64,000 bases of DNA, taken from contig JAFUYJ010000026.1 of NCBI GenBank assembly GCA_017470645.1, forward strand, positions 1-64,000, given 5' to 3'. The first letter of the stretch is position 1. Each line of letters begins with the position of its first letter. A model generated the notes under the pieces. The model was not told the DNA's origin. It worked only from the letters and a program-made list of their open reading frames with translations, and searched no databases. Made by a program: the position numbers and the translations under genes. Shown here piece after piece: positions 14,805-38,429 of this stretch. This stretch comes from Clostridia bacterium (GTDB taxonomy: Bacteria; Bacillota; Clostridia; TANB77; CAG-508).

Positions 14805-14805
14805 T

Positions 14806-15393: not shown

Positions 15394-15412
15394 TTTTTGA
15401 TAAGAAGCTTTT

Positions 15413-15464
15413 GGGGACACTGACAAAAAGTTTCAAGCAATTGAAACTTTTTGTCAGTGTCCCC
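15413..15464 (+). repeat. Dispersed palindrome, 24-bp perfect core
   Basis: GGGGACACTGACAAAAAG plus TTTCAA (15413-15436) pairs perfectly with 15441-15464 across a 4-nt loop; the flanks pair imperfectly. It lies 20 nt after the last fibre gene. Confidence 0.9.
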
Positions 15465-18464: not shown

Positions 18465-18549
18465 ATAAGAAGAAATTTATAAAAAAAGAAAACAAAAGGA
18501 AACAAAAAATAAGGAATGTGCCCCAAAAGGCAAAATGGAGGGAATTAAA

Positions 18550-19029
18550 ATGAGAGCAAAAACAATAAGAAAAGCGTTAATATCAACAATAATAGTAATT
18601 TGCATGCTTATAACAAGTGCAAACACAACGCAAGTATTAGCATCAACAGAAGGAAATACAGACGTACCTGTAGCGAAGGTAGCAGGTATAACGGATATTT
18701 TTAGAGCAGGAAATAGCTTTATAAGTACAGGAGAAAAAGAAGCTAGTAGTTATTCAAACAGAGCAGGATTTGACGTAACAAATCCCCAAAGTTTTGCAGA
18801 AGAATTTATAGATATAGGTCAAATACTAATAGCAGTTGGAGTTGTAGTGCTAGTAGGTACTTTTGCAGTAATGGGTATTAGATGGATAACAGCTACACCT
18901 GATAAAAAAGCTAAGTTACAACAACAATTAGTCGGGCTTGTAATAGCAGCAGTTATTATTTTCGGAGCAATTGGAATTTGGAACTTAGTAAGAAATATTA
19001 TGAATTCAGCACAAACAGCTATTGGATGA
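18550..19029 (+). CDS. VirB2/TrbC-like pilin subunit
   Basis: A small exported membrane protein with a signal peptide (about 1-31, ending QVLAS), a Ser/Asn-rich segment, and two membrane helices (about 82-105 and 118-140) joined by the short charged loop TATPDKKAKLQQQ. This plan is that of VirB2/TrbC pilins, which polymerise into T4SS pili or the extracellular end of the channel. It is the first gene of the 20-kb locus, behind a promoter at 18436-18464. ATG 18550 is used, with GGAGGG 7 nt upstream; the ATG at 18535 overlaps the ribosome site. The family call rests on topology and position, as sequence conservation is low. Confidence 0.72.
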   Translation: MRAKTIRKALISTIIVICMLITSANTTQVLASTEGNTDVPVAKVAGITDIFRAGNSFISTGEKEASSYSNRAGFDVTNPQSFAEEFIDIGQILIAVGVVVLVGTFAVMGIRWITATPDKKAKLQQQLVGLVIAAVIIFGAIGIWNLVRNIMNSAQTAIG

Positions 19030-19069
19030 TAATGCAAAATCAATAGTAATATACAAAGGAGGAATATAA

Positions 19070-19405
19070 ATGGCAACACATTATATACCAAAAAATCTAA
19101 AGGGAGAAACCAGAATATTAAGAATATTCTCAACTCACTCATTAATAACAACCGCAATTGGAATTGCAATAGGAGGAATCACATATTTCATATGCAGAAC
19201 TGTTGGAATAAGAATTGTAGGTTTAATAGTTTTAGTTCTTTGTGCATTAATAGGATTTGCAGTTGGAACAATAAAAATTCCAAGAATATCAGGTCTAAAA
19301 TTCACAAAAAACATTGAAGGAGATTCAATAGACGAAATTATAATTAGATATGCAAAATTTAAAACAAACAGAAAGATATATTCATATACAAAGGAGGAAG
19401 AATAA
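19070..19405 (+). CDS. PrgI family protein (VirB3-like T4SS component)
   Basis: A 111-residue protein with two membrane helices (about 26-43 and 48-67) and a short charged tail, starting HYIPKNLKGETRI, which resembles PrgI/VirB3 family proteins of Gram-positive and Patescibacteria T4SS loci. VirB3-like proteins associate with the VirB4 ATPase at the inner membrane. It lies directly before the TraC-like and VirB4 genes, the conserved PrgI-TraC-VirB4 order. CAAAGGAGG precedes the ATG. The gap to the next gene is 1 nt. Confidence 0.82.
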   Translation: MATHYIPKNLKGETRILRIFSTHSLITTAIGIAIGGITYFICRTVGIRIVGLIVLVLCALIGFAVGTIKIPRISGLKFTKNIEGDSIDEIIIRYAKFKTNRKIYSYTKEEE

Positions 19406-19406
19406 T

Positions 19407-20714
19407 ATGAATGGAGTTAGCGGTACACTAGGAATTATTTATACAATAATAACAATATGTATAGTAGTTTTACTGATATTAGTTGGAGTTGTATTTTTTG
19501 TGTGGTGGCAAAACAAGAAAAAAAATAATGGCGAAGACAAAAACAAAACAAAAAATTCAAAAGATTCTTCAACCAAATTACAAGGGATTGAATCAATAAA
19601 TAAATTTCTTGCATTCGATAAAATAGTAGATAGCATGATTGTAAGAAAAAAAGGTGAACAATATGTTATGGTTATTCAATGTAAGGGTGTAAACTTTGAC
19701 TTGCTAGGAGAAGAAGAAAAAGTTGCAATAGAAAACGGTTTCGTACAATTCCTAAACATATTAAGATTCCCAGTTCAATTATATATTCAAACAAGAAGTT
19801 TAAACTTAAAAGGAAATATAGACCAATATGAGGAAAGAGTTAATCAAGTAAGGGAAGATATTCAAAAAATAGAAAGCCATATAAAAAGAGAAACTGCAAA
19901 TGGAAGAATGGACTTAGTAAGAAGACTACAAGCAGAAAGAAGAAGAAAAATGAACATTCTTGAATATGGTTTGGATATTACAAACTATGTTTCAAGACTA
20001 AGTCAAAACAGAAATGTATTACAACAAAATACATACGTTGTTCTTTCATACTATAAATCAGAAATTGGTGGAGAAGTAAACAACTACTCAAAAGAGGAGA
20101 TAGAGAACATTGCATTCTCAGAATTATATACAAGAGCACAAACATTAATAAGAGGATTATCATCAGCTGGAGTAACAGGTAGGGTTATGAATTCGGAAGA
20201 ATTAGCAGAATTGCTATATGTAGCATATAACAGAGATGATTCAGAATTAATAAATATAAGAAAGTCTGTTGAAGCACAATATGATAGCCTATATAACACT
20301 GCGAAAGATGTAATGGATAAACAAAAAGAAATTATAGAAAAGAAAATAGAAAGTGAAGCAATCGAATTAACTGCAAATAGCATTAAAAAAGCAGATCGTA
20401 TTCGTAGATTAAGAAAAGATAATCAACAAGAAATAAAAAATAGAGCTTTAGAATATGCAGAAGCATATAAAGGTGAAATGACAGAAGAACTATACGAAGA
20501 AACTAAAAAACAAATAAAAGAAGCAGACTTAGCAGGAGAAGAAAAACAAAAAAGAATTGAAGAAAGAAGAAAATTAGCCAAAGAAAAAGCAAATTTACAT
20601 GATGAAGGATTAACAGATGAGCAAAAAAGAGCTTTAGCCAGAAGAAAACAATTAGCCAGAAGAAGAGCTCAAGCGGCAGCCACAAAGGCAAAACCTGATG
20701 AAACAGAAGTTTAA
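19407..20714 (+). CDS. TraC-like membrane-anchored T4SS protein
   Basis: One N-terminal membrane helix (about 8-29), a cytoplasmic domain (about 55-235) and a long Lys/Glu/Ala-rich C-terminus (about 290-435) likely to be coiled coil. The block VIQCKGVNFDLLGEEEKVAI followed by FVQFLNILRFPVQLYIQTR matches what I recall of TraC-like proteins next to PrgI and VirB4 in Patescibacteria and Gram-positive T4SS loci; the domain resembles the N-terminal part of VirB4. It probably bridges the ATPase and the membrane. AAGGAGG overlaps the PrgI stop, so translation is coupled. The longer frame from 19350 overlaps PrgI and was rejected. Confidence 0.75.
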   Translation: MNGVSGTLGIIYTIITICIVVLLILVGVVFFVWWQNKKKNNGEDKNKTKNSKDSSTKLQGIESINKFLAFDKIVDSMIVRKKGEQYVMVIQCKGVNFDLLGEEEKVAIENGFVQFLNILRFPVQLYIQTRSLNLKGNIDQYEERVNQVREDIQKIESHIKRETANGRMDLVRRLQAERRRKMNILEYGLDITNYVSRLSQNRNVLQQNTYVVLSYYKSEIGGEVNNYSKEEIENIAFSELYTRAQTLIRGLSSAGVTGRVMNSEELAELLYVAYNRDDSELINIRKSVEAQYDSLYNTAKDVMDKQKEIIEKKIESEAIELTANSIKKADRIRRLRKDNQQEIKNRALEYAEAYKGEMTEELYEETKKQIKEADLAGEEKQKRIEERRKLAKEKANLHDEGLTDEQKRALARRKQLARRRAQAAATKAKPDETEV

Positions 20715-20748
20715 TATAGACTAAAGATGTTTTTGAGAGGAGATTACT

Positions 20749-22728
20749 ATGAAATTAAATTTGAATTTAAACAAGAAAGATAACAATAACCAAATAGAGA
20801 AAAAGGAAGAAAAAAAAGAAGTAAGTGTACTAGCGAAGAATCAAAAGAGTTTAAAAGACATAATAGCACCTGCTGGAGTTGATGCAACACATACAAATCA
20901 CTTAGAAATAGTTGCAAGTACATCAAAATTTGCTCGTAGCATGATTATTTCAACAATGCCAAGAATGTGTACTTTTCCAGAGTTCTTAAGAGGAATGTAT
21001 ACATTTGGAGATGCAAATATTTCAGTGTTCATAAAACCAATTACAGAAAACTCTGCACAAACAGATTTAAACCGAAGAATAAACGAAATTGAATCTGAAA
21101 GAATTGTTGCTGCTGAAAGAGGAAATATAAACAGGGAAAGATTATTAGCACAAAAAAGACTTGAGGCAGAAGAATTAAGAGATTCAATAGCAGGAGGATT
21201 TAATAAATTATATGAATCTTCTGTAATATGCACATTGTTTGCCTATAGTTTAGAAGACTTAGATAAACAAACGGAATTACTTTCTGCTGAAATGTCAAAA
21301 ACATTAATCGGAATAAAACCAACATGGGCAATGCAAGAAGAAGCATTTAATTCAAATATGCCATATGCAGACAATCAAATAAATAAGAATCATACATTTG
21401 ACCGTAATTCAATGGCTACAGTATTCCCATTCATCAGTTCAGATATAGGACATGAAAATGGAATTCCGCTAGGATATAACCGTCAAACAGGATTACCAAT
21501 ATTATATGATAACTTCAATAAAGCACTAAACAACTATAACATGGTTATATTTGGTAAATCTGGTGCTGGTAAATCAGTTGCAATAAAAACATTAACAGCG
21601 CGTTCATCAGTATTGATGGGAATAGAAAGCTTAGCATTAGATGCTGAAGGTGAATATGGAGTAGTTGCAGAAGCATTAGGTGGAGTAAATGTAATAATAA
21701 GTCCAAATTCAAACACAATAATTAATTTATTTGATATTGAACCAGAATTAGTAAAAGATGAAATTACAGGAAAAGAAAAAGCAATATTAAATGTAGAAAA
21801 TAAGGTAGAAGATGTAACTCAAGCATTACTTACAATGGCAAGAGGAAGTACAAGAAGTACAGAAGTAAATGAGCTTACAAAACAAATAATTGCAGAAACA
21901 GTAGCAGAAGAATATAAAGCATACAACATAACAAGTGATGTAAACAGTATATATGTGAAGAAAAATGAAAGAGCCATGGAAGATAGCTACTTAGGAAGAC
22001 AAAGAAAAGAAATGCCAACTATAGGTTCATGGTATAAAAGACTAATACATAAAGCAAAAGCAAATGAAAACCCAGACTATAGATTCCACTACAGTTATTT
22101 AGCTAAAGTTATGAGACAATACGTAAGAGCATATAATGGTCAAATGGCATATTTTGATGGACAATCTACATTTGAGTTATTAGAGGACATACCATTTATT
22201 AACTTAGATATATCACAACTAGAAGAAAGATTTGCAAGACCACTAGCTCAACAAATATTATTATCATGGGTTTGGGAAAAATATGTAAAGAAAAATAGTG
22301 AAGACAAAGAAAAGGCAGCAAAGAAAAGGGTATTGGTAGATGAAGCATGGATGCTTTTACCATATCCAGAAGCTGTAGATTTCTTAAACACAATGGCAAG
22401 ACGTGCCAGAAAAAGAAATGTATCTCTAGCAGTTATATCACAAAAATTCCAAGACTTCTATGAGAAACAAGAAGTACAAGTAGTTTTAACATCATCAGAT
22501 ACAAAACTATTTTTAGCACAAGATAAATCAGAAATAGGATATATAAAAGAAGTATTTAAGCTAAGTGATGGTGAAGCAGAATTCTTAACAACATGTACAA
22601 GAGGTGAAGGTTTACTAAAAGTTGGAGAAGATACAGCAATTTTGGCTATTAACCCAACTAAGAAAGAATTCGAATTCATAGAAACAAACTTAAATGAATT
22701 AGCAAAAAGGGAAAGTAGGAAAAACTAG
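20749..22728 (+). CDS. virB4: VirB4/TraE-family T4SS ATPase
   Basis: The energy-providing ATPase of type IV secretion and conjugation systems, at the cytoplasmic face of the membrane. The P-loop FGKSGAGKS is at about residues 266-274, Walker B KRVLVDEAWML at about 525-535, and the sensor-like VISQKFQDF follows. The N-terminal 240 residues carry the CagE/TrbE-type domain. Length 659 is normal. AGAGGAG precedes the ATG, and the stop codon directly abuts the next start. It is the best-conserved member of the locus and the main evidence that the set is T4SS-derived. Confidence 0.93.
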   Translation: MKLNLNLNKKDNNNQIEKKEEKKEVSVLAKNQKSLKDIIAPAGVDATHTNHLEIVASTSKFARSMIISTMPRMCTFPEFLRGMYTFGDANISVFIKPITENSAQTDLNRRINEIESERIVAAERGNINRERLLAQKRLEAEELRDSIAGGFNKLYESSVICTLFAYSLEDLDKQTELLSAEMSKTLIGIKPTWAMQEEAFNSNMPYADNQINKNHTFDRNSMATVFPFISSDIGHENGIPLGYNRQTGLPILYDNFNKALNNYNMVIFGKSGAGKSVAIKTLTARSSVLMGIESLALDAEGEYGVVAEALGGVNVIISPNSNTIINLFDIEPELVKDEITGKEKAILNVENKVEDVTQALLTMARGSTRSTEVNELTKQIIAETVAEEYKAYNITSDVNSIYVKKNERAMEDSYLGRQRKEMPTIGSWYKRLIHKAKANENPDYRFHYSYLAKVMRQYVRAYNGQMAYFDGQSTFELLEDIPFINLDISQLEERFARPLAQQILLSWVWEKYVKKNSEDKEKAAKKRVLVDEAWMLLPYPEAVDFLNTMARRARKRNVSLAVISQKFQDFYEKQEVQVVLTSSDTKLFLAQDKSEIGYIKEVFKLSDGEAEFLTTCTRGEGLLKVGEDTAILAINPTKKEFEFIETNLNELAKRESRKN

Positions 22729-23952
22729 ATGAAGAAAAGAATTACCATTATATTTTGTATAATGTTTATAATTTTTAATTTCATATTTAGTTCTGTTTAT
22801 TTTGTTCATGCGGAAAACTACCAGGATGGTATCACTTTAGAAAATTTTAAAGTTGAAGCCAACGGGGATGCTGTAGAATTCTTTAAAAATCAAAGAAATA
22901 ACAATATCCCAATTTACTCAAATGGGGAACAAATTGGTTCAAAAAGTTTGGAACAAAATAACAAAGAAACAAATAACGCCGTAGTAGCAGCTTTAGTTAG
23001 AACCTGTACTTTTATTGTAGAATGGGCAAATAACATACCTCAAAAAGCAGTAGAAGCAACAGATAATACATTGAATTTAGAATATTTTACAATATATAGT
23101 TTGGTAATGGGAGAATATGATTTCTTTAATCTAAACTTTTTCACAACATCGGGTGATGAAGAAGATGCAGGAATATATGCACTAATACCTGGAGAACAAT
23201 ATGGAGAAAATAAACTATCTCTAGGTGGACAAATAAAACAAAACATAAAGACTTTCTACTATATATTAAGAACGCTAAGTTTTGCAATAAGCTTATTTGT
23301 TCTAATATACATAGGAATAAGAATGGCATTATCAGCTGTAACATCAGAACAGGTAAAATATAAAAAAATGATTATAAACTGGATAACATCATTAGTATTA
23401 TTATTTATCTTACATTTTATAATTATAGTATTTTCATACGCATCACAATTTGCATTGGGATTAGTAAAGAATCTAGCAAATGTAATGGGAGTTTCAAATA
23501 TCGAGGAGCTAATATTAGACGGAAGAATAGCTTACATGGGAACAGCAACTGGATTTCATGTTATAACATCATTAATTACAGTAGCAATATTTGTATATTA
23601 TGAAATCAAATTCTTTATTATGTATGTAAAGAGATTTTGCGAAATAGCATTTTTAATAGTTATCGCGCCGCTAATAACCATAACATATCCAATTGATAAA
23701 ATAGCAGATAATAAAGCGCAAGCCTTTTCAATGTGGCTTAAAGAATTATCAGTAAAATATTCAATACAAGTAGTACACGCGCTAACATACGTAATATTTA
23801 TAGCATCAGCAGGAGTAATAGCACAGGAAGTTCCATTATTTGCTGCATTCTTTCTATTAGCACTTGATAAAGCAGAAAAAATATTCAGAAATGTTCTAAA
23901 TGTAAAAGATAATAGCTTTGAAAAAATAAAAGTACCTATTATCGGTAATTAA
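22729..23952 (+). CDS. VirB6/TrbL-like polytopic membrane protein, paralogue 1
   Basis: A signal peptide (about 1-27) and a 130-residue exported segment come before about six membrane helices from residue 180 onward. The block FVLIYIGIRMALSAVTSE followed by KYKKMIINW also occurs in two other proteins of this locus, so all three belong to one VirB6/TrbL-like family forming the inner-membrane channel. Further shared marks are VIAPLITITYPIDKI and a helix with VVHALTYVIFIA. It starts at the base after the VirB4 stop with only a weak ribosome site, so it is probably translationally coupled. This copy lacks the long C-terminal tail of its paralogues. Confidence 0.82.
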   Translation: MKKRITIIFCIMFIIFNFIFSSVYFVHAENYQDGITLENFKVEANGDAVEFFKNQRNNNIPIYSNGEQIGSKSLEQNNKETNNAVVAALVRTCTFIVEWANNIPQKAVEATDNTLNLEYFTIYSLVMGEYDFFNLNFFTTSGDEEDAGIYALIPGEQYGENKLSLGGQIKQNIKTFYYILRTLSFAISLFVLIYIGIRMALSAVTSEQVKYKKMIINWITSLVLLFILHFIIIVFSYASQFALGLVKNLANVMGVSNIEELILDGRIAYMGTATGFHVITSLITVAIFVYYEIKFFIMYVKRFCEIAFLIVIAPLITITYPIDKIADNKAQAFSMWLKELSVKYSIQVVHALTYVIFIASAGVIAQEVPLFAAFFLLALDKAEKIFRNVLNVKDNSFEKIKVPIIGN

Positions 23953-23983
23953 ATAAATAAAAAAGATTGGAAGTGAGTTATAT

Positions 23984-25504
23984 ATGTTTAAAAATAAAAA
24001 AAGAATTATAATAATAGCTGTAATTGTAGCAATTATTATTCTAGTTTGTATTGTAATAAACATATATAACCAAAAGAAAAAAGAAAAGTTTATCCAATCA
24101 GAAACAGAAAGAGTACTAAAATATACATCAATAGAAGAATTTAAAAGCATAGAAGAAGTTTTCTTATATCTAAATAGTGAATTTATAAGTATAGAAGATT
24201 CAGAAGAAGAAAACGTTGATTATATAATAAAAGGAAAATTGAAATACAATGCAGAATATAGTGCAAAAACATATTACGAAAACCTAATCCAATATTCTGC
24301 ATATGTATTACAATATAAAAATTTCTACATAGTAGACGAAAGCAAAAATATAAATATTTTTGTGCTTTGTAACTCAGAAAAAGAAACAGTTGTAACATAT
24401 TATATAAATGATAATGAAAGATATCTAGAAAAATTACAAAATGAACAAAACATAGGAAAAGCAGAGCAACCAGAAATAAAATCAGTAAAAGTATCTTCAG
24501 AGGAATTAAATCAAATAATATCAAACAACTGGAAGACAAATGACATAAATTTAGGAACACAAGATAGTACGTATAGATACTATGACATATATTTTGATGA
24601 AGGTTATGAAATAAGAAAGATAAATGGAAAAGTATTTAACATAGTCTTCACAAATAAGTATAACAAAGACGTATTAGATAATATAAGAGTTAAAACATCT
24701 AAAGAAGAAACCATGAAGTCTCTTGGAAAACCAACATATGAATCAAGTGAAACATGGGGTTATAAAACAGAGAAATTTTATATATTTTTCAGCGATGAGC
24801 AGATATCAATTTATCCTGTAATTGAATATAGCACAGATAAAATTATAGAGGCATTAGAAGATTACAGTAAAACAAATGACTTTCAAAAATATATAAACAC
24901 CATAAGAACGATTTGGCAGGATTATGATTATTTTGAAAGCAACGGAAATAAAGTAATTTTGCAATATACATTAAAAGGAATAAAATTTAAATATGATTCA
25001 ACAGCACAAAATGGTGTAATACTTTACAACAATTACGCAGGATTAGTGAATAAAAACAATACTTTACAAAACGTAATTAATAACAACACATTAAATCTAC
25101 CAGATAAAATGTACTATGAAAATACTGATTTAGTATTTGAAAGTGAAAAAACAAGAATTGCAACATTGGATGATTACACACAATATAATAATTTGACAAC
25201 AGAAAAAATCTTAAACACAAGCAATAAATATAAAGTCAATCAAGATTCAGAAGGAAAGGTAATGTTTATATCAATAAATAAACAAGCACCTAACACAGAG
25301 CTTAGGGAAATAGCAGATTCAGCGGTTTGGTATGATGACCATACATTTATATATTCTGTTAGTGGAAAAGGAATTTACATGTATGATGTACAAGCTCAAA
25401 AGTATACAACAATTGTGGAAGGAAACGATAAATATCAGATAAAGGTACTAACCAAAGAAAATGAATTAATCTATGATGAAACAAGCATAGTTTTGGAAAA
25501 ATAA
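23984..25504 (+). CDS. Hypothetical membrane-anchored protein of the T4SS-like locus, 506 aa
   Basis: Not recognised. One membrane helix near the N-terminus (about 6-25) with a short basic head, then about 480 residues predicted outside. The middle holds short alpha/beta segments such as GYEIRKINGKVFNIVFTN and MKSLGKPTYESSETWGYKTEKFYIFF, which look somewhat like BamE/SmpA-type small domains. The C-terminus has a beta-rich stretch, SAVWYDDHTFIYSVSGKGIYMYDVQ, resembling a propeller blade. Its place between two VirB6-like genes suggests an extracytoplasmic part of the machine. GGAAGTGAG precedes the ATG. Confidence 0.65.
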   Translation: MFKNKKRIIIIAVIVAIIILVCIVINIYNQKKKEKFIQSETERVLKYTSIEEFKSIEEVFLYLNSEFISIEDSEEENVDYIIKGKLKYNAEYSAKTYYENLIQYSAYVLQYKNFYIVDESKNINIFVLCNSEKETVVTYYINDNERYLEKLQNEQNIGKAEQPEIKSVKVSSEELNQIISNNWKTNDINLGTQDSTYRYYDIYFDEGYEIRKINGKVFNIVFTNKYNKDVLDNIRVKTSKEETMKSLGKPTYESSETWGYKTEKFYIFFSDEQISIYPVIEYSTDKIIEALEDYSKTNDFQKYINTIRTIWQDYDYFESNGNKVILQYTLKGIKFKYDSTAQNGVILYNNYAGLVNKNNTLQNVINNNTLNLPDKMYYENTDLVFESEKTRIATLDDYTQYNNLTTEKILNTSNKYKVNQDSEGKVMFISINKQAPNTELREIADSAVWYDDHTFIYSVSGKGIYMYDVQAQKYTTIVEGNDKYQIKVLTKENELIYDETSIVLEK

Positions 25505-25560
25505 AACAGTAATAAAGAATTTAAGCAATTAAAATACTAAAAGGGAAGGAGATAATATTA

Positions 25561-28239: not shown

Positions 28240-28394
28240 CTGATAGAGGAAAACGTGCTGTATGGTTTGATAATTTCGCACGTAATGGTATAAATATAAG
28301 AGGAAGAAATATAAATCTTCCAATAGGAATATTACAAGCGCTTTCATCAACAGAGCGTCAAAAATTATACAGACTATTAGCACAAAATTCATCA
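28227..28394 (+). other. Open reading frame without a start codon joining two T4SS-locus genes
   Basis: The frame used by the gene at 28395 is open for 56 codons upstream, back to a TGA at 28224, with protein-like content (GQLTDRGKRAVWFDNFARNG) and no ATG, GTG or TTG. It overlaps the end of the M23-VirB6 gene by 13 nt. Reading GAAATGGGC with one extra A would join both frames as KVENGQLTDRG. This is where a frameshift, natural or from sequencing, would lie. Confidence 0.7.
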
Positions 28395-29369
28395 TTGGAT
28401 GCTAAACGAAATATATACAAGAACATACAAGATGCAAAACAAAAGAGCAAGAAACATTATACAAGACATATAACTACACTAAAAAATCTGGGAGTAGGAA
28501 CATTCAACATGCTTGCAGGTGTAGGTTTCTTAGCTGAAGGAATAACACCTGCTATGCATAGAACAATAAAAGGTATTAAAATGAATTACAAAGAATTGCA
28601 TGGTAGAGATGAAAGAAGATATAGAAGGTTACATCCATATAGAAATGATGATCCAAATAAGAAATATCTAAACGGACCTTTGGGTGCTCTAGGAAACTTA
28701 CAAGCTAAAGAAGATATGGCAGTTAAAAAATACGAAAAAGACATGAAGAAGATAAAAGGAAAACAAGAAGCGTTAAAATTAATAACAAATTATGAATCAG
28801 ACATTAATAATAGATTAGATAGAATGTTTGCTGGAAAAACGGAAGCAGAAAGAAAAGAATTGTTCAAAAACTTACAGCAAACAGTTAAAAATACTCGTAA
28901 AACAGATATTAGCGCAGGAAAAGTAAGCCAAGCGGTTGGTACATACATGTACAAAAAAGGTAACTTAAATGGCAAGTTGGAGGATTCTGATTTAGATGGA
29001 ATTATGGATGAGCTACAAGGTATACTAGACAGAAAATCAACTAATAAAATTAATGTACAAGACACAAGTTTGAAAAATAGAATTATGGCGAACATAGCTG
29101 GAGGAACATTACATGATAAGAGTGGAAAAGAGGCAGCAGCGTTGATTACAGATGCTATAAATAAATTTGGTGTGGTTGATATTAGCTCAACATTTAGAAC
29201 AAGCTTAAATACTGCAGATCCATCAGTAGCAGGAGATTTCGAAGATATTGCAACAGCACTGAAAAATGCATATGGTACAAATGAAAAATCAAAAATTGAA
29301 AATAAAGGTGCAGCAGATTCAACAGCTGACTTTATAAAAGAAATATATAAAAAGTATGAGGAGGTGTAG
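28395..29369 (+). CDS. C-terminal tail of the M23-VirB6 protein, in a separate frame (324 aa)
   Basis: A soluble, basic, mostly helical protein rich in Lys, Arg and Gln, with no recognised domain. A weakly hydrophobic stretch (NLGVGTFNMLAGVGFLAEGI, about 31-50) is not a clear membrane helix. The only possible start is a TTG without any ribosome site, and the frame is open 168 nt further upstream, so I think this is the cytoplasmic tail of the M23-VirB6 protein, detached by a frameshift. Paralogue 3 has the same plan, with channel helices followed by a long soluble tail. If intact, the joined protein would be about 1270 residues. Its end carries the ribosome site of the next gene. Confidence 0.6.
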   Translation: MDAKRNIYKNIQDAKQKSKKHYTRHITTLKNLGVGTFNMLAGVGFLAEGITPAMHRTIKGIKMNYKELHGRDERRYRRLHPYRNDDPNKKYLNGPLGALGNLQAKEDMAVKKYEKDMKKIKGKQEALKLITNYESDINNRLDRMFAGKTEAERKELFKNLQQTVKNTRKTDISAGKVSQAVGTYMYKKGNLNGKLEDSDLDGIMDELQGILDRKSTNKINVQDTSLKNRIMANIAGGTLHDKSGKEAAALITDAINKFGVVDISSTFRTSLNTADPSVAGDFEDIATALKNAYGTNEKSKIENKGAADSTADFIKEIYKKYEEV

Positions 29370-29371
29370 TA

Positions 29372-31471
29372 GTGAATAAAAAAAGATTATTAAGCAAAAT
29401 AGGAATATCAATAGCAGTACTATCATTAATAATTTTAGTAACAAGTAGAAGTCATGCGGCGGTTGCTGTTGCAGCAACTGGAATAGCAGGAATATTAATT
29501 GTTGTAGCACAAGAAGCATGCGTTGTACTTGGTCTTGCAGGACAATCAATAATAACAACCTTAACAGCGGGAGCGGATGGTTTATCTAGTAGTATTTGGT
29601 CTGTAAAAGACGTAATATTTAACAGATCAAGTCTAACAACTGCAAGCTTTTTCTTCAACAGATCTAGTGGATTCTATATGGGATTAGATAGCAACTTGCA
29701 TTATGAAGGAGGAATTGTAGGCGATATTTTTGCAAATGTTACAACCTTTTATTCAATAATGAGAAACTTATCAATTGCAGCACTACTATTTATTTTAATA
29801 TACATAGGAATAAGGATGGCAATTTCAACAGTTGCATCTGAAGAGGCAAAATACAAAAAGATGTTAGGAAATTGGGCAGTAAGCATGGCTTTGGTTTTCG
29901 TACTACACTTTATAATTATATTAACATTATATGTAAATAATTCTTTAGTTAGAATATTGTATCATTTCGTTGATAGTTCACTTGACAATACTGTAATGTA
30001 TACTGAACTTGCAATAGAAGGGGCGTTCCCAATTCTAGGTATAGGAGAAGCAATTGTATTTCTAACTTTAATTGGTATAGAATTAACATTTATATTTATG
30101 TATATAAAACGTGTGGTAACATTAGCATTTTTAATTGTAATAGCGCCACTTATTACTATAACATACTCAATAGATAAAATAGGTGATGGTAAATCACAGG
30201 CACTAAACACATGGATGAAAGAATATATATTTACAGTTTTAATTCAACCATTCCACTGTATTATATACATAGTTATTGTACAATCAGTATTACAGGGTGC
30301 AAGTGGATTAGAAACAATAGGATCAGGTGTTATATATATCATAATGCTATTCTTCATGAAAGAGGCAGAAGGAATTGTAAGAAAAATATTTGGAATACAA
30401 TCAGATAGTATGCCAGGACATGGAGCTATGGGTGCAATGGCACTAGGTGTTTTAACACAATTTGGAGGAAAAAAAGGAAAAAAAGGATCAGCGTCAGGTG
30501 CACAATCTAATAAACAAATGCCAAATATGAGAGAAGAGCAAATTGCACAACAACAAACTCCAGCACAACAAAGAATGCAACAACAGAGACAACAACAGCA
30601 ACAAAAGCAGCAACAAGTACAACAGCAGCAACAAGTACAACAACAGCAACAAGCACAACAGCAACAACCAGCGCAACAGCAACAAGCACAAGAACAGCAA
30701 ACATCAACAGATGAATCATCAGGATTGGATTGGGGTAAATTGTTGCGATCAGCAAGGGTTGCTCAAGGAATAGGTAATATAAAACAAATAAGAAAAGCAA
30801 GAAATGCAATTGCAAACAGTGACTTTGCACAAAATAGTTCTGAAAAAATAAGATCGCTAAAAAATCGTATATCTAACTCAGATATTGCTAATAAGAAGTT
30901 TTTTGGAAAGAGTATAAAAGAAAGGGCAAACGAAACAGCAAGTGAATTTAGAACAGGTGTAAGCTTATTAGGCGGAGAAGAAGGTATGCGTAAAAGAGGT
31001 ATTGCACTTGGTGCAGGTATGGCAGCATTTGGTATTGGTGGAGGCATGGGAGATGCTAAAGCCGCAATAGGTGCTGCATTAGTAGCACAAGGTGGAGCTG
31101 AAAGCATTGAAAATGCCCTAGATGATATAAGATACAATAACCAACTTGAAGATAATGAGGAAGTATATAAAGACTATCTTAAAGCAACATACTATAATCA
31201 ATTTAGAGCACAACAAGGTGCAGATAGTCGTGGTACTGCATATAGTAACTACACAGATGAAGAGATTAATGATTATATTACACAATTATATAAAGATTAT
31301 AGTGATAACAAACTTGTATATGATGACATCAGCGATAGAGATAAAGAATTATTAAAAATGCGTAAAAATATGCATAAATCTTATGCTATGGTTGGTGAAT
31401 CAGATGCAGACGGTAAACTAGAAGATTTAGCAGAAGAAGCACGTCAAGAGTTAGCAGCACAGAATCCATAA
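29372..31471 (+). CDS. VirB6/TrbL-like membrane protein with poly-Gln tail, paralogue 3
   Basis: A GTG start 7 nt behind GGAGG. A signal-like helix (about 10-30) is followed by an exported segment and about six membrane helices, with FILIYIGIRMAISTVASEEAKYKK (about 142-165) and VIAPLITITYSIDKI shared with paralogue 1. After residue 340 comes a cytoplasmic tail: a Gly/Lys stretch, a Gln-rich tract with Ala, Val and Pro (about 390-445), then 240 residues of helical sequence with a Gly-rich segment (GAGMAAFGIGGGMGDAKAA). The tract may be a flexible tether. It most likely forms the channel with the other two VirB6-like proteins. Confidence 0.82.
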   Translation: MNKKRLLSKIGISIAVLSLIILVTSRSHAAVAVAATGIAGILIVVAQEACVVLGLAGQSIITTLTAGADGLSSSIWSVKDVIFNRSSLTTASFFFNRSSGFYMGLDSNLHYEGGIVGDIFANVTTFYSIMRNLSIAALLFILIYIGIRMAISTVASEEAKYKKMLGNWAVSMALVFVLHFIIILTLYVNNSLVRILYHFVDSSLDNTVMYTELAIEGAFPILGIGEAIVFLTLIGIELTFIFMYIKRVVTLAFLIVIAPLITITYSIDKIGDGKSQALNTWMKEYIFTVLIQPFHCIIYIVIVQSVLQGASGLETIGSGVIYIIMLFFMKEAEGIVRKIFGIQSDSMPGHGAMGAMALGVLTQFGGKKGKKGSASGAQSNKQMPNMREEQIAQQQTPAQQRMQQQRQQQQQKQQQVQQQQQVQQQQQAQQQQPAQQQQAQEQQTSTDESSGLDWGKLLRSARVAQGIGNIKQIRKARNAIANSDFAQNSSEKIRSLKNRISNSDIANKKFFGKSIKERANETASEFRTGVSLLGGEEGMRKRGIALGAGMAAFGIGGGMGDAKAAIGAALVAQGGAESIENALDDIRYNNQLEDNEEVYKDYLKATYYNQFRAQQGADSRGTAYSNYTDEEINDYITQLYKDYSDNKLVYDDISDRDKELLKMRKNMHKSYAMVGESDADGKLEDLAEEARQELAAQNP
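30535..30710 (+). repeat. CAA/CAG-rich tract encoding poly-Gln
   Basis: Short imperfect CAACAG-type repeats inside VirB6-like paralogue 3, coding Gln with scattered Ala, Val and Pro. Slippage here could change tether length between strains. Confidence 0.8.
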
Positions 31472-31522
31472 TAAATGAAATATTTGATTAAAGAATATAA
31501 TGTAAATTAAGGAGGTGAAATC

Positions 31523-34500
31523 ATGCCAAATACAAATCAACCAGATAATCAAGACAATCTTGATGAAGTTCAAGAAGATGAACTAAGGCGTCAGCCTGAG
31601 GAACGTAGCGCAGCAGAACAGGCTGCAAGACAGGCAGCAGGAGATGCTGTAAGAGCTGGAAGGGACAAACTTGTTCAAAGAATATCAGCTACAAAAGTAG
31701 GACAGGCAATAAAGAGTGCATTTACAGCTACGAAAGGCTTTTTAGCTGGACATTTGGTTCCAGTAATTGTAATAGTGTTTCTTATTATAGTTATAATAGG
31801 TTTTGTAGGCTATTTTATGTATATGCCATCACTAATAAGAGGAAAATTTGCGGAATTTTCAGGTAAACTAATGGAAGTTTTTTATGGAGATAATCATAGA
31901 CTAACAGTAAAGTCAATTGATGAAGAAAAAAGAATAGAACTACTACAATATTTAAATGATATGGGCTTAGACGTAGTTGGCTATGGTTTCGCCCCAGGCG
32001 TAAAATTTGAGGAAGATGGAGAAGGAAAAGAAGTTATCAAAGAATATACAACTCATCTAATGACTGGCGAAGAACATGATAGTAATGATAGTGATATTGA
32101 GGATGCAAAAGGTGATTTATTATACTATTATTTAATGGCAGGAGAAAGAGCATACACAATTAACGATGATGGTCTTGATGGAACACTTGAGAAATTGTAT
32201 AGACTAAATCCAGGATATCTTTTAACTTCTAAAGCATTAGAATTACTTTTTGGTCAAGATGATGCATTTAAAGGTATGATTAATATAACTGGTGATGAAG
32301 GATTTGATGGTGTAGAAGTTGAAATAGATAGAGAAAATCAAGATTTAATAATAACAAAAAATAAAAATCTTGTAGACGAATATGAATATGCATTTTCAAT
32401 GGGTGACTGGACAGGAAGATATGGAACACCAGTAGAATTCTCACTAGCATTACACTTAGCTACAATGTCTTCAGGAATGATGAGAGAATTAATTACTAAC
32501 CCTAACCTTCAAACCGCAGTATCAATAGGATTAGACGAAGTAGAATGTAATATAAATTTCAGATTTAACGTAAAAAATCCAGACGGAAGCGTAAGGGAAT
32601 TAATGTTACCATTTAACGATCCTAATGGCAATCAATATGCATTAAGAGATAAAATAGCAAATAATGAAACAATATCTGAGGATGACATATCAATAGAAGG
32701 ATTATACTATGTTTATAAAGGATTAGAAGTATTTAAATACCAAGTAATTACAAACACTGAAAAACTCTTACAACGTGGTGAAGATTACAATTCAATTGGT
32801 ATTGGAAATATATCAAGACACTTAGAAACAATGGAAGCATTAACAGGAAGTAGAGATATAGCAGTTCAAGTAGGAAATGTAGATTATGAGCAAACCAGCA
32901 GTGATGGTAAAACAGAATATGATGGTGATGAAATTGTTATACCAGTATACTATAGAAAAGATGATGGTTTCTCAAAATCAACAGTAACTGCAAATAGCGG
33001 TGCATATATCTGTCAATATGATAAAGAAGGAGAAAGACCTGATGAATCAACAGGTAAATTAAATGCAAGCACAATTCCTGAAACAAATCAAATTGTAAAT
33101 CTACAATATGAAGAAGTAAAAGACCAAGAAAATGGTGAAAATGAAAATTACTTTATGTATAAATTAAAAAATGATGTTGAAGGAAATGATTTTTCAGATT
33201 CTTATGAGTACATACCAAAAGCAGATAAATATAAATTAACAAGAGATGATGGATCACAATTTGACAGTGCAGATGTTACTGTATATAGAATAAGAGGTTT
33301 GGAAACATTCTTTGGTGAGCATACTCTAGATACAAACGACATAGTATACTTAACATCACATAAAGAAGCATACGACGCAATGCTAGAAGAAATAGATTGG
33401 TTCATCTCACTTGCAATATGGAGCAACGGTTGGGATATGTCCGAATTTAATTATAATACATCAATGGATAATCTAAACCAATTCTATGCTAGCGAAGATT
33501 CTAATAGAAATATTAGTACAGTGTCATATTATAGAAACTTGTTTGACCAAGCAATAAGCGGTCAGGGAGACGTAAGTTTAGCTGATGTGTATAATCAATT
33601 AATAGCAGATTATGAAACAATAAAGAATAAATCTATACCAGTTGAATCTACACAAAGTGAAGTAGAGAGTAGACTTAAAAAGCTAGATTATGAAGTATTT
33701 ACAGATAAAGTAGTATACTTTATATATGAACAATTCAATGACAAAATGGATGAAAGTGGAAGTGTAGTTAAATATGTACAACCATATATAAAAAGTGTTG
33801 TAAAACACTGGTTTAAAGATGTAGACTTTATGGCAGATGGAGTATATTCTGAATCAGATGCTGCAATAGAATTGGCATTCCCAGCTGAAACTGAGTTGCC
33901 AGAAGAAGTAGAAGCAGTAACAGTTTTAACTCCAAAAAATGGAGGAAGAGTATCAACCCAAATGGATGAACCATATGTTATAAAAGGTGATACAGTATTA
34001 CGTGACGGTAAAATTGTTGATGACCATAATACATCTATAAAAGATGCGGTTAACAAGACAGCAGATGTATCAGATTATAACTGGGGAGACGGCTATAGAA
34101 CAACCAAAAAAATATTCACTCAAGGATTTTATTATACATTTGATGGAACAGCAGATACAGCAAGAAGTATTTATTTCCAAGAGGAATTAGAAAATGCATC
34201 ATACGGAGAAATAATAGAGTTTTCAGTTTCTAACGGAAGAATAGTAAAAGCACAAAGAAATCCTCAAAGAGAAATAATTGGTATGGATATGATTTTCGAT
34301 AAAAATGCCATTACCATTTATTATGAAGGCGAAGATGAAGAAGAGCTAAAACTATACGAAAGTGATAATGAAAATATTAGAAGATATAGTGATGCGAAAA
34401 AAACGAACCTTAAAGTTCCGGTAAAAAAATACATAATTGTATATAACAATTCAAACTTAGAATATCTATCACCAGCAGATAATGATTATCAAACCGTAAA

Positions 34501-36025
34501 GAACAGAGTCGACTTCATAAATGAGGTATGGGATGTGGTAGGAGTTCAATGCAAGAGAAAACATTTAACATTCGATACTGTAGTAGAGACAGAAAACGCT
34601 GATGAAGAACATGCATCAGATGCGCAATTAATGGCAATTACAGGACTTCAATTATTGAAGAACATGGATACGGAAGATGCAGACTATATATACAGAGACT
34701 TAAAAGAAATGTTGATTGAGCTTGCATACTACACAGAAGCTGAATTTGATTACCTAGATACCGATAAACTAGAATGGTTTATACCAGACTATCAACCTGA
34801 AGTATGGCCACAAAACTCAGATAATGAAATATTAGATTTTGCAGCGATATTATATCCAAAAGAAGAAAAAGATGAAAATGATGATACAGAACCAACTGAA
34901 GAAGAAGAATTTAGACAAACCATGGGATTAAGTATAGATAAGTCACAAGGATTTGACCCAGATTTACAAGTAATAGCACCAGGAGATTGTATTATTCTAA
35001 GTGCTGAAGAAAACGAAATAGAAATAGAATTTAGAGCAGATGAACAACCTGAAATAGCAGTTTTAGATAAATATACAATGATAATTGAAGGTATAAACAT
35101 TGAAGATGGAATAACAATTATAGATGAAGACGAAAACGAAACTAATATTAGTTATGAAAGTGCAATAAAAAACAAAACAAGAATTCCTGTGCATTCAGTT
35201 ATAGGTAAAACAGGAAAAGATGAAATAAAAGTATACTTATTAAATTCTAAGGGTGGAATTATAAGCAATGTTGACCATTATATGGCTCCAGAAGTTGCAA
35301 CAGTTAGCACACAGTCAGATAGTTTTTCAATAACTGGAACAGTGTTAACTAAGGATGAATTTACAAATTGTTGTTTATCATATATGAGCTCAAGAGGTAT
35401 TAATAATAGTGATTTTTCAGAAACTAATTTAAGAAAGTTTTATGAAATTTGTGTAAGTTCAGGGGTGAACCCAGAATTTGCTTTTGTAACAGCAATAGCC
35501 GAAAGTGGATTAACAGCAGGGGAAGCAACAAGTACACATAATTATTGGGGATTAGATACTCCAAATGGAAGCTCAGTTCCATCACTTGGAACAATGCTTG
35601 AAACATTACAAAAATACTGTGATAGACTTGTAGAATATCAAGATCCAACAAGTAGTTTTTACACAATGATTATGGCAAAATATGAAGAGCGTGCAGCGTG
35701 TACAGAAAATGGAGGCTGCAATCCAAATGGATATGGTAAACCAGATACTTTACAAGGATTACAAAGTATATATTCATACGTAGGTGATCACGTAGAGGGT
35801 GGCTCAGGAACTGGAGGATATTACTATTTAGACCCTGGTGTTGCAGGCTTTACAGGAGTATATAGCACTCATCAAGAATTCCTTACAAAATGTAAAAATA
35901 ACCACCCATATGGAAGTAAAGCGTCAATATGGGAACAAGCTCAATATACGGCATACCAGGTTGAAAGTAAAGTTGAAAAAGCTAAAGAGATTTTTGGAGA
36001 AAACGCAGGGAAAGCGATACATTAA
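31523..36025 (+). CDS. Giant membrane-anchored T4SS-locus protein with C-terminal lysozyme-like domain, 1500 aa
   Basis: An N-terminal cytoplasmic segment (1-78, acidic then Ala/Arg-rich), one membrane helix (about 79-103) and roughly 1400 residues outside. The long middle is acidic with no domain I recognise. The last 220 residues contain FVTAIAESGLTAGEA, STHNYWGLDTPNGSSVP and a final SIWEQAQYTAYQVE, matching glucosaminidase/transglycosylase-type lysozyme-like domains; Glu in AIAES is the probable catalytic residue. It would act as the VirB1-like wall hydrolase and perhaps also as a periplasm-spanning scaffold. AAGGAGGTG precedes the ATG. It is the largest gene of the locus. Confidence 0.8.
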   Translation: MPNTNQPDNQDNLDEVQEDELRRQPEERSAAEQAARQAAGDAVRAGRDKLVQRISATKVGQAIKSAFTATKGFLAGHLVPVIVIVFLIIVIIGFVGYFMYMPSLIRGKFAEFSGKLMEVFYGDNHRLTVKSIDEEKRIELLQYLNDMGLDVVGYGFAPGVKFEEDGEGKEVIKEYTTHLMTGEEHDSNDSDIEDAKGDLLYYYLMAGERAYTINDDGLDGTLEKLYRLNPGYLLTSKALELLFGQDDAFKGMINITGDEGFDGVEVEIDRENQDLIITKNKNLVDEYEYAFSMGDWTGRYGTPVEFSLALHLATMSSGMMRELITNPNLQTAVSIGLDEVECNINFRFNVKNPDGSVRELMLPFNDPNGNQYALRDKIANNETISEDDISIEGLYYVYKGLEVFKYQVITNTEKLLQRGEDYNSIGIGNISRHLETMEALTGSRDIAVQVGNVDYEQTSSDGKTEYDGDEIVIPVYYRKDDGFSKSTVTANSGAYICQYDKEGERPDESTGKLNASTIPETNQIVNLQYEEVKDQENGENENYFMYKLKNDVEGNDFSDSYEYIPKADKYKLTRDDGSQFDSADVTVYRIRGLETFFGEHTLDTNDIVYLTSHKEAYDAMLEEIDWFISLAIWSNGWDMSEFNYNTSMDNLNQFYASEDSNRNISTVSYYRNLFDQAISGQGDVSLADVYNQLIADYETIKNKSIPVESTQSEVESRLKKLDYEVFTDKVVYFIYEQFNDKMDESGSVVKYVQPYIKSVVKHWFKDVDFMADGVYSESDAAIELAFPAETELPEEVEAVTVLTPKNGGRVSTQMDEPYVIKGDTVLRDGKIVDDHNTSIKDAVNKTADVSDYNWGDGYRTTKKIFTQGFYYTFDGTADTARSIYFQEELENASYGEIIEFSVSNGRIVKAQRNPQREIIGMDMIFDKNAITIYYEGEDEEELKLYESDNENIRRYSDAKKTNLKVPVKKYIIVYNNSNLEYLSPADNDYQTVKNRVDFINEVWDVVGVQCKRKHLTFDTVVETENADEEHASDAQLMAITGLQLLKNMDTEDADYIYRDLKEMLIELAYYTEAEFDYLDTDKLEWFIPDYQPEVWPQNSDNEILDFAAILYPKEEKDENDDTEPTEEEEFRQTMGLSIDKSQGFDPDLQVIAPGDCIILSAEENEIEIEFRADEQPEIAVLDKYTMIIEGINIEDGITIIDEDENETNISYESAIKNKTRIPVHSVIGKTGKDEIKVYLLNSKGGIISNVDHYMAPEVATVSTQSDSFSITGTVLTKDEFTNCCLSYMSSRGINNSDFSETNLRKFYEICVSSGVNPEFAFVTAIAESGLTAGEATSTHNYWGLDTPNGSSVPSLGTMLETLQKYCDRLVEYQDPTSSFYTMIMAKYEERAACTENGGCNPNGYGKPDTLQGLQSIYSYVGDHVEGGSGTGGYYYLDPGVAGFTGVYSTHQEFLTKCKNNHPYGSKASIWEQAQYTAYQVESKVEKAKEIFGENAGKAIH

Positions 36026-36059
36026 GTCAAGCTAACTAAACTTGGGAGGTATAATTTAT

Positions 36060-36629
36060 ATGAAAAATAGAAGACTAATTTTTATTATAGCTATAATAGT
36101 ATTAATTTTAATAAGCCTCGTAACTGCATATAATATAATAGTTTCAAAGACTCAAAGAACAGAGGTAGAGAAATATTTAAATTATATTAATTCCGAAGAA
36201 ATCGGAGAAGAAGTAAAAACACCAAAAATGATGCATGTTGTATTAGCTGCATATAAGGGCAACGTAAAAGATTTATCAATTGTAAAATCAATTACATACT
36301 TCAAAACCAACATAATACCAGAAATTCAAGAAAACACAAAAAATCATATATCAAAATCAATGTATTATAAATGGCATAAAAAACAATTAAAACAACAAAT
36401 AGGAATAAGTAATAAACAGGAATACAATCTGTTGGTTGAGAAATGTAACATACTAACAAGTACAGACAACATTGATTACATGAAATTTGATACAGACACA
36501 ATAAAAATTGATTCAAATGGGTTAGATGTAGTATTACGTGTAAAGTGTAAAGATAGTGCAGAAGTAAAATTTAATGTGAGAATATTAAAGAAAGCCAATG
36601 AAAGCCAAACATCAATATATATAAAATAA
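36060..36629 (+). CDS. Hypothetical anchored protein of the T4SS-like locus, 189 aa
   Basis: Not recognised. One N-terminal membrane helix (about 6-25) and a Lys-rich outer domain of about 160 residues with a helical middle and a beta-rich end (DVVLRVKCKDSAEVKFNVRIL). GGGAGG lies 11 nt before the ATG; the longer frame from 36042 begins inside that ribosome site. It sits 34 nt after the giant lysozyme-domain gene and 17 nt before the next. By position it is an accessory part of the envelope complex. Confidence 0.65.
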   Translation: MKNRRLIFIIAIIVLILISLVTAYNIIVSKTQRTEVEKYLNYINSEEIGEEVKTPKMMHVVLAAYKGNVKDLSIVKSITYFKTNIIPEIQENTKNHISKSMYYKWHKKQLKQQIGISNKQEYNLLVEKCNILTSTDNIDYMKFDTDTIKIDSNGLDVVLRVKCKDSAEVKFNVRILKKANESQTSIYIK

Positions 36630-36646
36630 AAGTAAAGGGTGTCGCC

Positions 36647-37300
36647 ATGAGCAAGGTTAAGAGTGATATAAGAATTAAAGATTTAAAATGGTTAATTATA
36701 ATAATACTGATAACATTAGTATTATTAGTAATATATCTAAAAGAATATGCCATAAATGCTAAAATAGAAAACGAAGCAATAATTAACACAAAAAATGAAA
36801 CTCAGCAAGCTAGCCAACAAGAAAATAAAACATCCCAGGTCGAAATACAAAGAACAGATGAAGATGTGGTAAAGTATCTGTCTGGACTAGATGAAAGAAG
36901 TAGAATGGAATACTATTGTGGTGAATACTTAAAGCATATAAAATACAAAGAATATGAGGATGCATATAATTTATTGTATCCTGAGTTCAAAGAAAACTAC
37001 TTCCCAACATTAGAAAAATTCGAAGAATATGTAAAAAATTATTACCCTAAATTTTTTGCTGTTCAATATGATGATATTGACAGGCAAGGAGATATTTATA
37101 TCATCAGATTAAAAATTGTAGATGCAACAAATTCGTCAAAAGACAGCAATAATGCAGAAAGCAGCAAAGACAACATACAAAGAATGGTAATTCGCGAAAA
37201 TGGATTTAATGATTTTGTAATGTCATTTCAAGTTAACAATATAGATGAAAATAACGTAGATAATAGCACAAGAACTGATAATATAGAAAACAACAATTAA
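36647..37300 (+). CDS. Anchored NTF2/VirB8-like-sized protein A, 217 aa
   Basis: A cytoplasmic head, one membrane helix (about 16-37), a Gln/Asn-rich linker and an outer domain (about 75-200). The segment YEDAYNLLYPEFKENYFPTL (about 104-123) closely matches YEKAYELISEDCKKNYYPTL in the next gene, so the two are paralogues. A single N-terminal helix plus a small NTF2-like domain is the plan of VirB8/TcpC scaffold proteins, a suggestive but unproven match. The C-terminus is low-complexity Asn/Asp. AAGGGTG precedes the ATG. Confidence 0.65.
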   Translation: MSKVKSDIRIKDLKWLIIIILITLVLLVIYLKEYAINAKIENEAIINTKNETQQASQQENKTSQVEIQRTDEDVVKYLSGLDERSRMEYYCGEYLKHIKYKEYEDAYNLLYPEFKENYFPTLEKFEEYVKNYYPKFFAVQYDDIDRQGDIYIIRLKIVDATNSSKDSNNAESSKDNIQRMVIRENGFNDFVMSFQVNNIDENNVDNSTRTDNIENNN

Positions 37301-37331
37301 ATAAAACTTATAATAAAGAGGAGTATATGAG

Positions 37332-38315
37332 ATGAGTAATAGAAGCGATTTTCAAGTTAAAATTATAAATTTCTGGAAAAAACATAAAAAAAAGATTTTT
37401 ATAATAATTGTAATTTGGTTAATAATTATAGTTATTAACCAAATTCTAAAGCACAGAAAACCAGCTGAAAAACAGCCATCTACAACATATACTCCTCATA
37501 CTACTGTTATGGGCGATGGTGATGAAGAAGTACCTGAACAATATCAAAAGCCTATTGAAGAGTACATTGATAAATACTTCAATTACTGTAACAATGGGGA
37601 ATATGAAAAAGCGTATGAACTTATTTCAGAGGATTGCAAAAAGAACTATTATCCAACATTAGAAAGTTTTAAAGGATATGTAGATGAAATCTTCAAAGGA
37701 AAAAAGAAAATTTATAACATACAAAGTTATTCAATAGTTGATGACAAATACACATATAATATCCGAATATTAGATGATATACTTGCAAACGGTACATCAG
37801 AATCATTTGAATTAGGTGGAAAAACATACGAAAATGGATATTATTATTACGAAGAAAAGCTAATATTCACAGAAGAAAATGGAGAGCTTAAACTATCAAT
37901 ACAATATATCGATGATTCAGAACCTAACATTATAGTAGAGGATGAAAATTTTACTGTTAGAATTACCAAGAAAGTAGCAGATTATGAGTCAGAAACATAT
38001 ACAGTTCAAATAGATAACAAAACAGACAATTATATTGTAATCTCTGATGGAAAGCAAAAAGATGAAATAACAATGAACTATAACGGAAGAGAAAAGAACT
38101 TGAAGAATAAAATCGCTAATTTATATATAAGACCACATTCATTTGCTGTAAGAGAATTCACATTTGAAAATTACTTTGATGAAGGACGTACGGCAGACAC
38201 GCTTAAGTTCAACGCGGTAAGAGTTTTAAAGAATTATGATGTAGAAAAAGGAACAACTCAAGAAAATTTAGATGAAGCAGTACAACTTTATAGTTTTGAA
38301 ATAAATATGAAATAA
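37332..38315 (+). CDS. Anchored NTF2/VirB8-like-sized protein B, 327 aa
   Basis: A basic head, one membrane helix (about 20-38), then a domain sharing the YEKAYELISEDCKKNYYPTL motif with the previous protein, followed by a second beta-rich domain (about 200-327) with TVQIDNKTDNYIVISDG, which the other lacks. In Gram-positive conjugation TcpC also has two NTF2-like domains behind one helix; similarity here is by layout only. AGAGGAG lies 8 nt before the ATG. It ends the secretion locus and is followed by two different copies of the dispersed palindrome. Confidence 0.66.
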   Translation: MSNRSDFQVKIINFWKKHKKKIFIIIVIWLIIIVINQILKHRKPAEKQPSTTYTPHTTVMGDGDEEVPEQYQKPIEEYIDKYFNYCNNGEYEKAYELISEDCKKNYYPTLESFKGYVDEIFKGKKKIYNIQSYSIVDDKYTYNIRILDDILANGTSESFELGGKTYENGYYYYEEKLIFTEENGELKLSIQYIDDSEPNIIVEDENFTVRITKKVADYESETYTVQIDNKTDNYIVISDGKQKDEITMNYNGREKNLKNKIANLYIRPHSFAVREFTFENYFDEGRTADTLKFNAVRVLKNYDVEKGTTQENLDEAVQLYSFEINMK

Positions 38316-38320
38316 TGTGA

Positions 38321-38356
38321 GAAACTTTTGGGGACACTGACAAAAAGTTCCACCGA
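38321..38356 (+). repeat. Dispersed palindrome, left half only
   Basis: GAAACTTTTGGGGACACTG followed by ACAAAAAGTTCCAC, 5 nt after the last T4SS-locus gene, without its right arm. A complete copy of the second form begins 4 nt later. Confidence 0.8.
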
Positions 38357-38359
38357 GTT

Positions 38360-38429
38360 GATGTTTTGAGGGACACTGGTAAAAAACAGCATGAATGTGC
38401 TGTTTTTTACCAGTGTCCCTCAAAACATC
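38360..38429 (+). repeat. Dispersed palindrome, second form, 32-bp perfect arms
   Basis: Arms 38360-38391 and 38398-38429 are perfect reverse complements with a 6-nt loop. The sequence begins GATGTTTTGAGGGACACTGG and continues TAAAAAACAGCA. Confidence 0.92.

Follow-up and report, generated by a model that had tools for sequence, protein, structure and literature searches.

Nearly all known functions of type IV secretion systems (T4SSs) in Gram-positive bacteria concern DNA transfer, which a 2025 review regards as surprising; dedicated effector translocators in these bacteria are a long-standing question, and, according to the same review, no Gram-positive T4SS outside Patescibacteria carries VirB2 pilins (PMC12857230). 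Here we describe a T4SS operon at positions 18535-38315 (plus strand) of the window, i.e. the whole stretch of 64,000 nucleotides that was analysed from contig JAFUYJ010000026.1 of a Clostridia bacterium (order TANB77, family CAG-508). The operon comprises thirteen reading frames, from T1 (18535-19029) to T13 (37332-38315), and by its predicted gene set the system is a Gram-positive (MPF-FATA-like) T4SS.

The closest known system appears to be the chromosomal T4SS of Patescibacteria, the likeness being one of anatomy. As in Patescibacteria and Saccharibacteria, the Clostridia system is relaxase-free, chromosomal and clade-wide, combines a TrsD-PrgI-VirB4-VirB6 set with a divergent array of VirB2-like pilins, holds wall hydrolases (peptidase, putative lysozyme) beside and downstream of virB4, and usually has its VirD4 at a distance (PMC12102498). 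The traits of the Patescibacteria type that were compared, including an unlinked type IV coupling protein (T4CP) and the TrsD-VirB4 pair known from pGO1 and Patescibacteria (PMC12102498), were recovered, albeit with one pilin in the window locus itself. Unlike its counterpart, the system resides in a Clostridia order with 1-2 Mb genomes and not in an obligate epibiont phylum, and it carries multiple VirB6 fusions as well as NTF2 proteins anchored by a transmembrane (TM) helix. PMC12102498, and PMC12857230 citing Wang et al. 2023, describe the Patescibacteria T4SS of a Saccharibacterium as one that epibiotic growth depends on.

With the conjugative MPF-FATA systems (pGO1 trs, pCF10 prg, and integrative conjugative elements (ICEs) of the CD1110 type) the locus shares the VirB4 type, PrgI and a TrsD-like VirB4 partner, together with a VirB1-like part and putative VirB6- and VirB8-like parts. 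It differs from them in lacking a linked relaxase, integrase and T4CP, in the presence of VirB2-like pilins, and in a VirB4 whose closest full-length plasmid matches are ~31% identical. Helicobacter ComB, a Gram-negative system without VirD4, is likewise chromosomal and relaxase-free and may be linked to ComEC; unlike ComB, the system described here has a resident VirD4 in the genomes of its order. The VirB/VirD4 system of Streptococcus suis 89K, likened here by description, is also Gram-positive with reported protein secretion, but it belongs to a pathogenicity island and is not order-wide (PMC12857230).

Distribution, inheritance and chromosomal setting

The T4SS is very probably an old, resident, vertically inherited machine rather than a mobile element. 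The window lies on contig 8 of a 46-contig, 1.53 Mb genome (G000, assembly GCA_017470645.1) with an estimated completeness of 93%; sequence-level scans covered 79% of this genome, and gene order was read in 90 loci, drawn from five families of the order. VirB4 was matched in 144 of 145 family genomes and in 224 of 238 order genomes. Its high-identity form occurs in about three quarters of the order (~177/238), with identities of 64-89% across the five families, and is confined to the order among 291 genomes of the class, where two others reach 28-34%. Among 72,556 plasmid and 50,697 phage records, none holds a relative exceeding 60% identity. VirB4 distances follow those of RpoB (Mantel r 0.78, p 1e-4, 27 genomes), and the sampled members of families f4 and f5 group together in this comparison. 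Family f1 holds two VirB4 clades, which for some genomes, such as G125 of the window's genus, disagree with RpoB, and the conflict is therefore attributed to replacement within the family or to an old duplication with loss. Two high-identity copies are present in G059 and likewise in G106, one of the latter being partial. The ratio of non-synonymous to synonymous substitution rates (dN/dS) between G000 and G137 is 0.10 for VirB4 and 0.15-0.57 for the other operon genes, and the operon core is therefore considered to be under purifying selection.

The order PrgI-TraC-VirB4 is kept in 87 of the 90 loci, and pilin and VirB6 genes are also present beside it in 84 of 90, spread over the five families. 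Together with the order-wide presence, the RpoB-tracking distances and the absence of near plasmid or phage relatives, this constancy lends strong support to the fixed system that a sequence-only reading of the window had suggested. The same reading had placed the locus among housekeeping genes, which holds for the window's genus and for many relatives: rpsU, yqeY, two M16 peptidase genes and lgt flank the operon in many relatives, and an ABC-F gene does so in the window's genus. The yqeY/M16 flank is common to 31 of the 62 loci that have enough upstream sequence.

The marks of an ICE were not recovered. As noted earlier from the sequence, no integrase, relaxase or VirD4 is seen among the open reading frames (ORFs) of the window; no relaxase is linked to the operon, neither an integrase nor an att site lies at its borders, and no close relatives were found on mobile replicons. 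The sole long direct repeat flanking the locus (42 nt, 15403-15444 and 38320-38361) was considered as an att site and rejected, since it belongs to a palindromic repeat with 86 dispersed copies. This dispersed repeat (core CTTTTGGGGACACTGACAAAAAG) resembles repetitive extragenic palindromic (REP) elements, is often arranged in inverted pairs, has its 86 matches within the scanned 79% of G000, and is absent from eight sets of relatives' loci that were scanned. A tRNA-Arg at 15550 is likewise an unlikely integration site, because an ABC-F gene intervenes and the ABC-F-T4SS junction is also present in G137. A relaxase, coupling protein and integrase just outside the window, or a patchy presence at variable sites, would point to an ordinary ICE; for the most part neither pattern was found. 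Still, two observations weigh against strict residency and call for caution, namely that about a quarter of the sampled order genomes are without the high-identity VirB4 and that the exact chromosomal neighbours of the T4SS vary between genera.

Resident VirD4 and relaxases elsewhere in the genome

The proposed lack of VirD4 proved wrong at genome scale. A resident VirD4 (PF02534, 2.9e-74) is encoded on another contig of the window genome (L143:1038-2961, G000:C10), and nearly every genome of the order has one: PF12696 was matched in every one of the 145 family genomes, mostly as one strong copy, and 223 of 238 order genomes hold the resident VirD4 at E<=1e-80. Its neighbourhood reads dnaJ, a small protein, virD4, sbcD and sbcC, and in several relatives virD4 shares the contig of virB4 at a distance of about 10-50 kb. 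Loss of VirD4 is enriched among VirB4-less genomes (12/61 vs 8/177, Fisher p 7e-4), albeit in a test that is inflated by shared ancestry, and VirD4 persists in 49 of the 61 VirB4-less genomes, so that it may serve other machines. Both of these points weigh against the export through a VirD4-fed channel that is proposed below. Pairing of VirD4 with VirB4 is likely, yet it is not exclusive because of this survival.

In most order genomes the VirD4 match starts around residue 150, where the Walker A motif lies, and the resident VirD4 of G000 likewise requires a +1 shift at a CGG codon inside this motif. At all readable junctions (24/24) the upstream frame crosses a CGG codon and the P-loop is read from the +1 frame, as in GTT GGA CGG TTC read on as GGA (C) GGT TCT GGT. 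A single +1 step restores a normal GGSGSGKS, matching relatives with an unsplit virD4. Over 526 long ORFs, CGG is used at 0.25 per 1000 codons, and the 79% of the genome that was read yielded no tRNA-Arg(CCG). From these coding frames, the junction looks like a starved CGG codon at which a +1 shift is programmed, and it provides a clean, countable genetic signal. No published report of the order's T4SS or of the VirD4 frameshift was found in a search that most subscription papers lay outside.

Among the relaxase families MOBP, MOBT, MOBV, MOBQ and MOBF, the genome-wide search covered MOBP (PF03432). MOBP relaxases are patchy, being present in 54 of 145 family genomes. The genome of the window yielded a single PF03432 match, unlinked to the T4SS, on contig C17 (L142), where it is accompanied by a different VirB4 of its own and by a VirD4, broken past its CGG junction; this region looks like an ICE. 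The description of the machine as one "without conjugation genes" thus stands as regards the unlinked and patchy relaxase, and fails as regards the VirD4 resident elsewhere in the genome.

A second T4SS-like set was observed near the gyrase genes of the order. TraC', VirB4' and a MinD-like ATPase lie between gyrB and gyrA, and the set continues beyond dnaC/dnaD-like genes with PrgI', VirB6', pilin' and VirD4' (L247 = G136:C11, L248-L252). VirB4' is present in 185 of 238 order genomes. In the window genome only the PrgI'-VirD4' half was seen in the sequence read (L141, C20, 5864-9105).

Components of the locus

All thirteen same-strand frames read from the sequence were confirmed in the window, and the gene count was corrected to 12 since T7 and T8 form a single frameshifted gene. 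The VirB2-like pilin, PrgI, the TraC-like protein, the VirB4 ATPase and the M23 domain claimed in the sequence-only reading were all recovered by profile scans (Pfam/NCBIfam). The pilin T1 has a signal peptide and two TM helices; its PF18895 match (7.8e-5) falls just below the Pfam cut-off, and 9 of 10 pilins at the same position in relatives pass the cut-off of PF18895 or of PF04956. Pilin copies are divergent and number 1-8 in 88 of the 90 loci. T2 (19070-19405) is a PrgI/VirB3-like membrane protein with a PF12666 match slightly below cut-off (2.1e-5) and a dN/dS of 0.15 against G137. T3 (19407-20714) is TrsD/TraC-like with one N-terminal TM helix; its start is probably at 19407, behind a Shine-Dalgarno repeat, instead of at 19350. 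T4 (20749-22728) is the VirB4 ATPase, with matches to PF19044 (TraG P-loop, 1.2e-13) and to NF045971 (CD1110-family VirB4, 1.1e-65), the latter under its equivalog cut-off. The NCBIfam model VirB4_plasma, built on mycoplasma VirB4, is shared out over T3 (model positions 88-267) and then T4 (275-893); VirB4 is therefore considered split into two polypeptides, T3 being its N-terminal half.

Three VirB6-like proteins had been proposed. T5 (22729-23952), T7 and T9 are putative polytopic or partly membrane-embedded proteins of this kind; they match each other and their counterparts in relatives, T5 in all ten relatives compared, and keep a consistent position, but the profile matches to mycoplasma ICE membrane proteins are weak (E about 1e-3 to 3e-3; NF045848/NF045889 for T5). 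T9 (29372-31471) ends in a long Q-rich cytosolic tail. T7+T8 (25561-29369) combines an M23 peptidase (PF01551, 7.1e-26), a membrane part of the VirB6-like kind and a cytosolic tail; a frameshift near 28228-28240 leaves one piece at 25561-28239 and another that runs to 29369, and its counterpart is one intact ORF of 1112-1165 aa in G137, G134 and G041.

Two kinds of wall hydrolase had been claimed. The M23 domain is firmly matched and supplies the VirB1-like anchored wall hydrolase expected of a Gram-positive T4SS. The "lysozyme-like" domain, conversely, corresponds to a weak glucosaminidase match (PF01832, 0.015, below cut-off) near residues 1306-1382 of T10 (31523-36025), an anchored outside protein of 1500 aa. 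Positional counterparts of T10 differ strongly in sequence, and were read by eye as proteins with one TM helix and assorted wall-hydrolase-like domains, so the hydrolase role is better supported; T10 is a probable VirB1-like wall hydrolase.

The remaining frames encode anchored outside proteins. T6 (23984-25504; 506 aa) has one N-terminal TM helix and a large outside domain; its model, from a 35-row alignment, has a mean predicted local distance difference test score (pLDDT) of 89.5. A structure search found no match to the whole fold and partial matches only, propeller-like at the C-terminus and YjgB/TagH-like in the mid-domain. T11 (36042-36629; 195 aa) has one TM helix read from the sequence and no convincing Pfam family. 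T12 (36647-37300) is an anchored NTF2-like, DUF4864-like protein (PF16156, 5.5e-4, below cut-off) with VirB8-like topology, conserved beside T13. The model of T13 (pLDDT 85.4) places a TM helix at 19-41, an NTF2-like domain at 67-192 and a second beta-sandwich at 197-327. NTF2 folds match with Z up to 11.1, and the second domain is YcdA-like (Z 9.6). The predicted topology of T13 (TM helix, NTF2, beta-sandwich) is VirB8-like; VirB8 is not among the T13 matches listed (Foldseek, VIA), where NTF2 folds of many kinds rank first.

In relatives with a single VirB6 (G052:C2 = L147 from 19858, G131, G043, G123), the operon ends with a soluble, mostly acidic protein. These proteins share a YGxYGE-like stretch, are absent from the window, and are possible substrates or chaperones. 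No clear C-terminal secretion signal was seen in the operon-end cytosolic proteins of some relatives, whose tails vary and in most cases are acidic before a short basic end. Elsewhere in the window, SipW-like signal peptidases and several TasA-like secreted proteins, named from the sequence read, lie on both sides of the T4SS (11846-15393 and 45481-46990). A surface protein of 3889 aa with RCC1 repeats and SpaA domains (49358-61027) adjoins a dockerin protein (47140-49089), and the product of 61449-62312 resembles Rpn recombination-promoting nucleases on reading alone.

Possible functions

Contact-dependent export, most likely of proteins, is tentatively proposed as the machine's main job, with a confidence a little short of even. 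The pilins would form a short contact filament, and the membrane channel would consist of PrgI, the two VirB4 subunits and the VirB6 proteins; the wall would be opened locally by T10 and the M23 part, and T12 and T13 may build a VirB8-like wall ring. The unlinked resident VirD4 would feed substrates into the channel, and a T4CP of this kind suits export. On contact, the machine would release proteins into the surroundings or into neighbouring cells rather than conjugate DNA; conjugation is disfavoured because there is no fixed MOBP relaxase. Several points weigh against export. No substrate was identified; in Patescibacteria, the unlinked T4CP is non-essential though other T4SS genes are essential (PMC12102498); and ComEC is conserved (57 of 59 family genomes, including that of the window) while the window's genus is without a strong type IV pilus ATPase. 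The wider picture is doubtful: in it, an order of gut Clostridia would have turned a piliated T4SS into a core contact machine that delivers protein effectors to neighbouring bacteria, its VirD4 being controlled by a programmed +1 shift where a starved CGG codon falls in Walker A, and a second, miniature T4SS-like set lying by gyrB-gyrA.

The observation on ComEC bears directly on an unlikely alternative, a DNA uptake machine akin to Helicobacter ComB, in which the pilus and channel would cross the wall, ComEC would cross the membrane and VirD4 would be unrelated. Strong PilB/PilT-type ATPases occur in ~40 of 59 genomes and at high score in none of the three tested from the window's genus; in the window genome neither these nor VirB11 were found at high score. 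Uptake keeps weight because ComEC is conserved and the window's genus has no recognisable type IV pilus motor. Conversely, the T4SS is retained alongside type IV pili where these occur, so that no replacement pattern emerges, a resident VirD4 exists, and comEC loss in Saccharibacteria left the essential role of the T4SS untouched (PMC12857230).

The presence of a resident, T4CP-like VirD4 and of relaxases, patchy as they are, would also fit a host-owned conjugation channel, borrowed by relaxase-bearing mobilisable elements. We regard this as distinctly unlikely: most sampled genomes lack a MOBP relaxase, the relaxase of the window genome lies with its own VirB4 and VirD4 on C17, and an order-wide machine serving parasites alone would bring the host little benefit. 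More improbable still is a pilus for adhesion or signalling without translocation, with the pilin array as its working part. The divergent pilins and the diverse anchored proteins at the T10 position speak for such a fibre, which would, however, hardly need a VirB4 under purifying selection, several VirB6 proteins and wall hydrolases. A decaying or ordinary ICE is largely refuted and very improbable, as the genomes without the system, the differing flanks, the f1 clades at odds with RpoB and the T7/T8 frameshift are set against the missing integrase, att site, relaxase and linked T4CP, the order-wide presence, constant gene order and purifying selection, the shared yqeY/M16 flank and the dispersed nature of the flanking repeat.

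In summary, protein export on contact is the reading we favour, and with an order-wide T4SS that bears pilins and is free of a relaxase, gut Clostridia make the question of effector translocators testable in another lineage. As a very probably inherited part of the chromosome in a whole order of uncultured gut Clostridia, the system gives an uncommon opening to ask if Gram-positive bacteria employ T4SSs beyond plasmid transfer.
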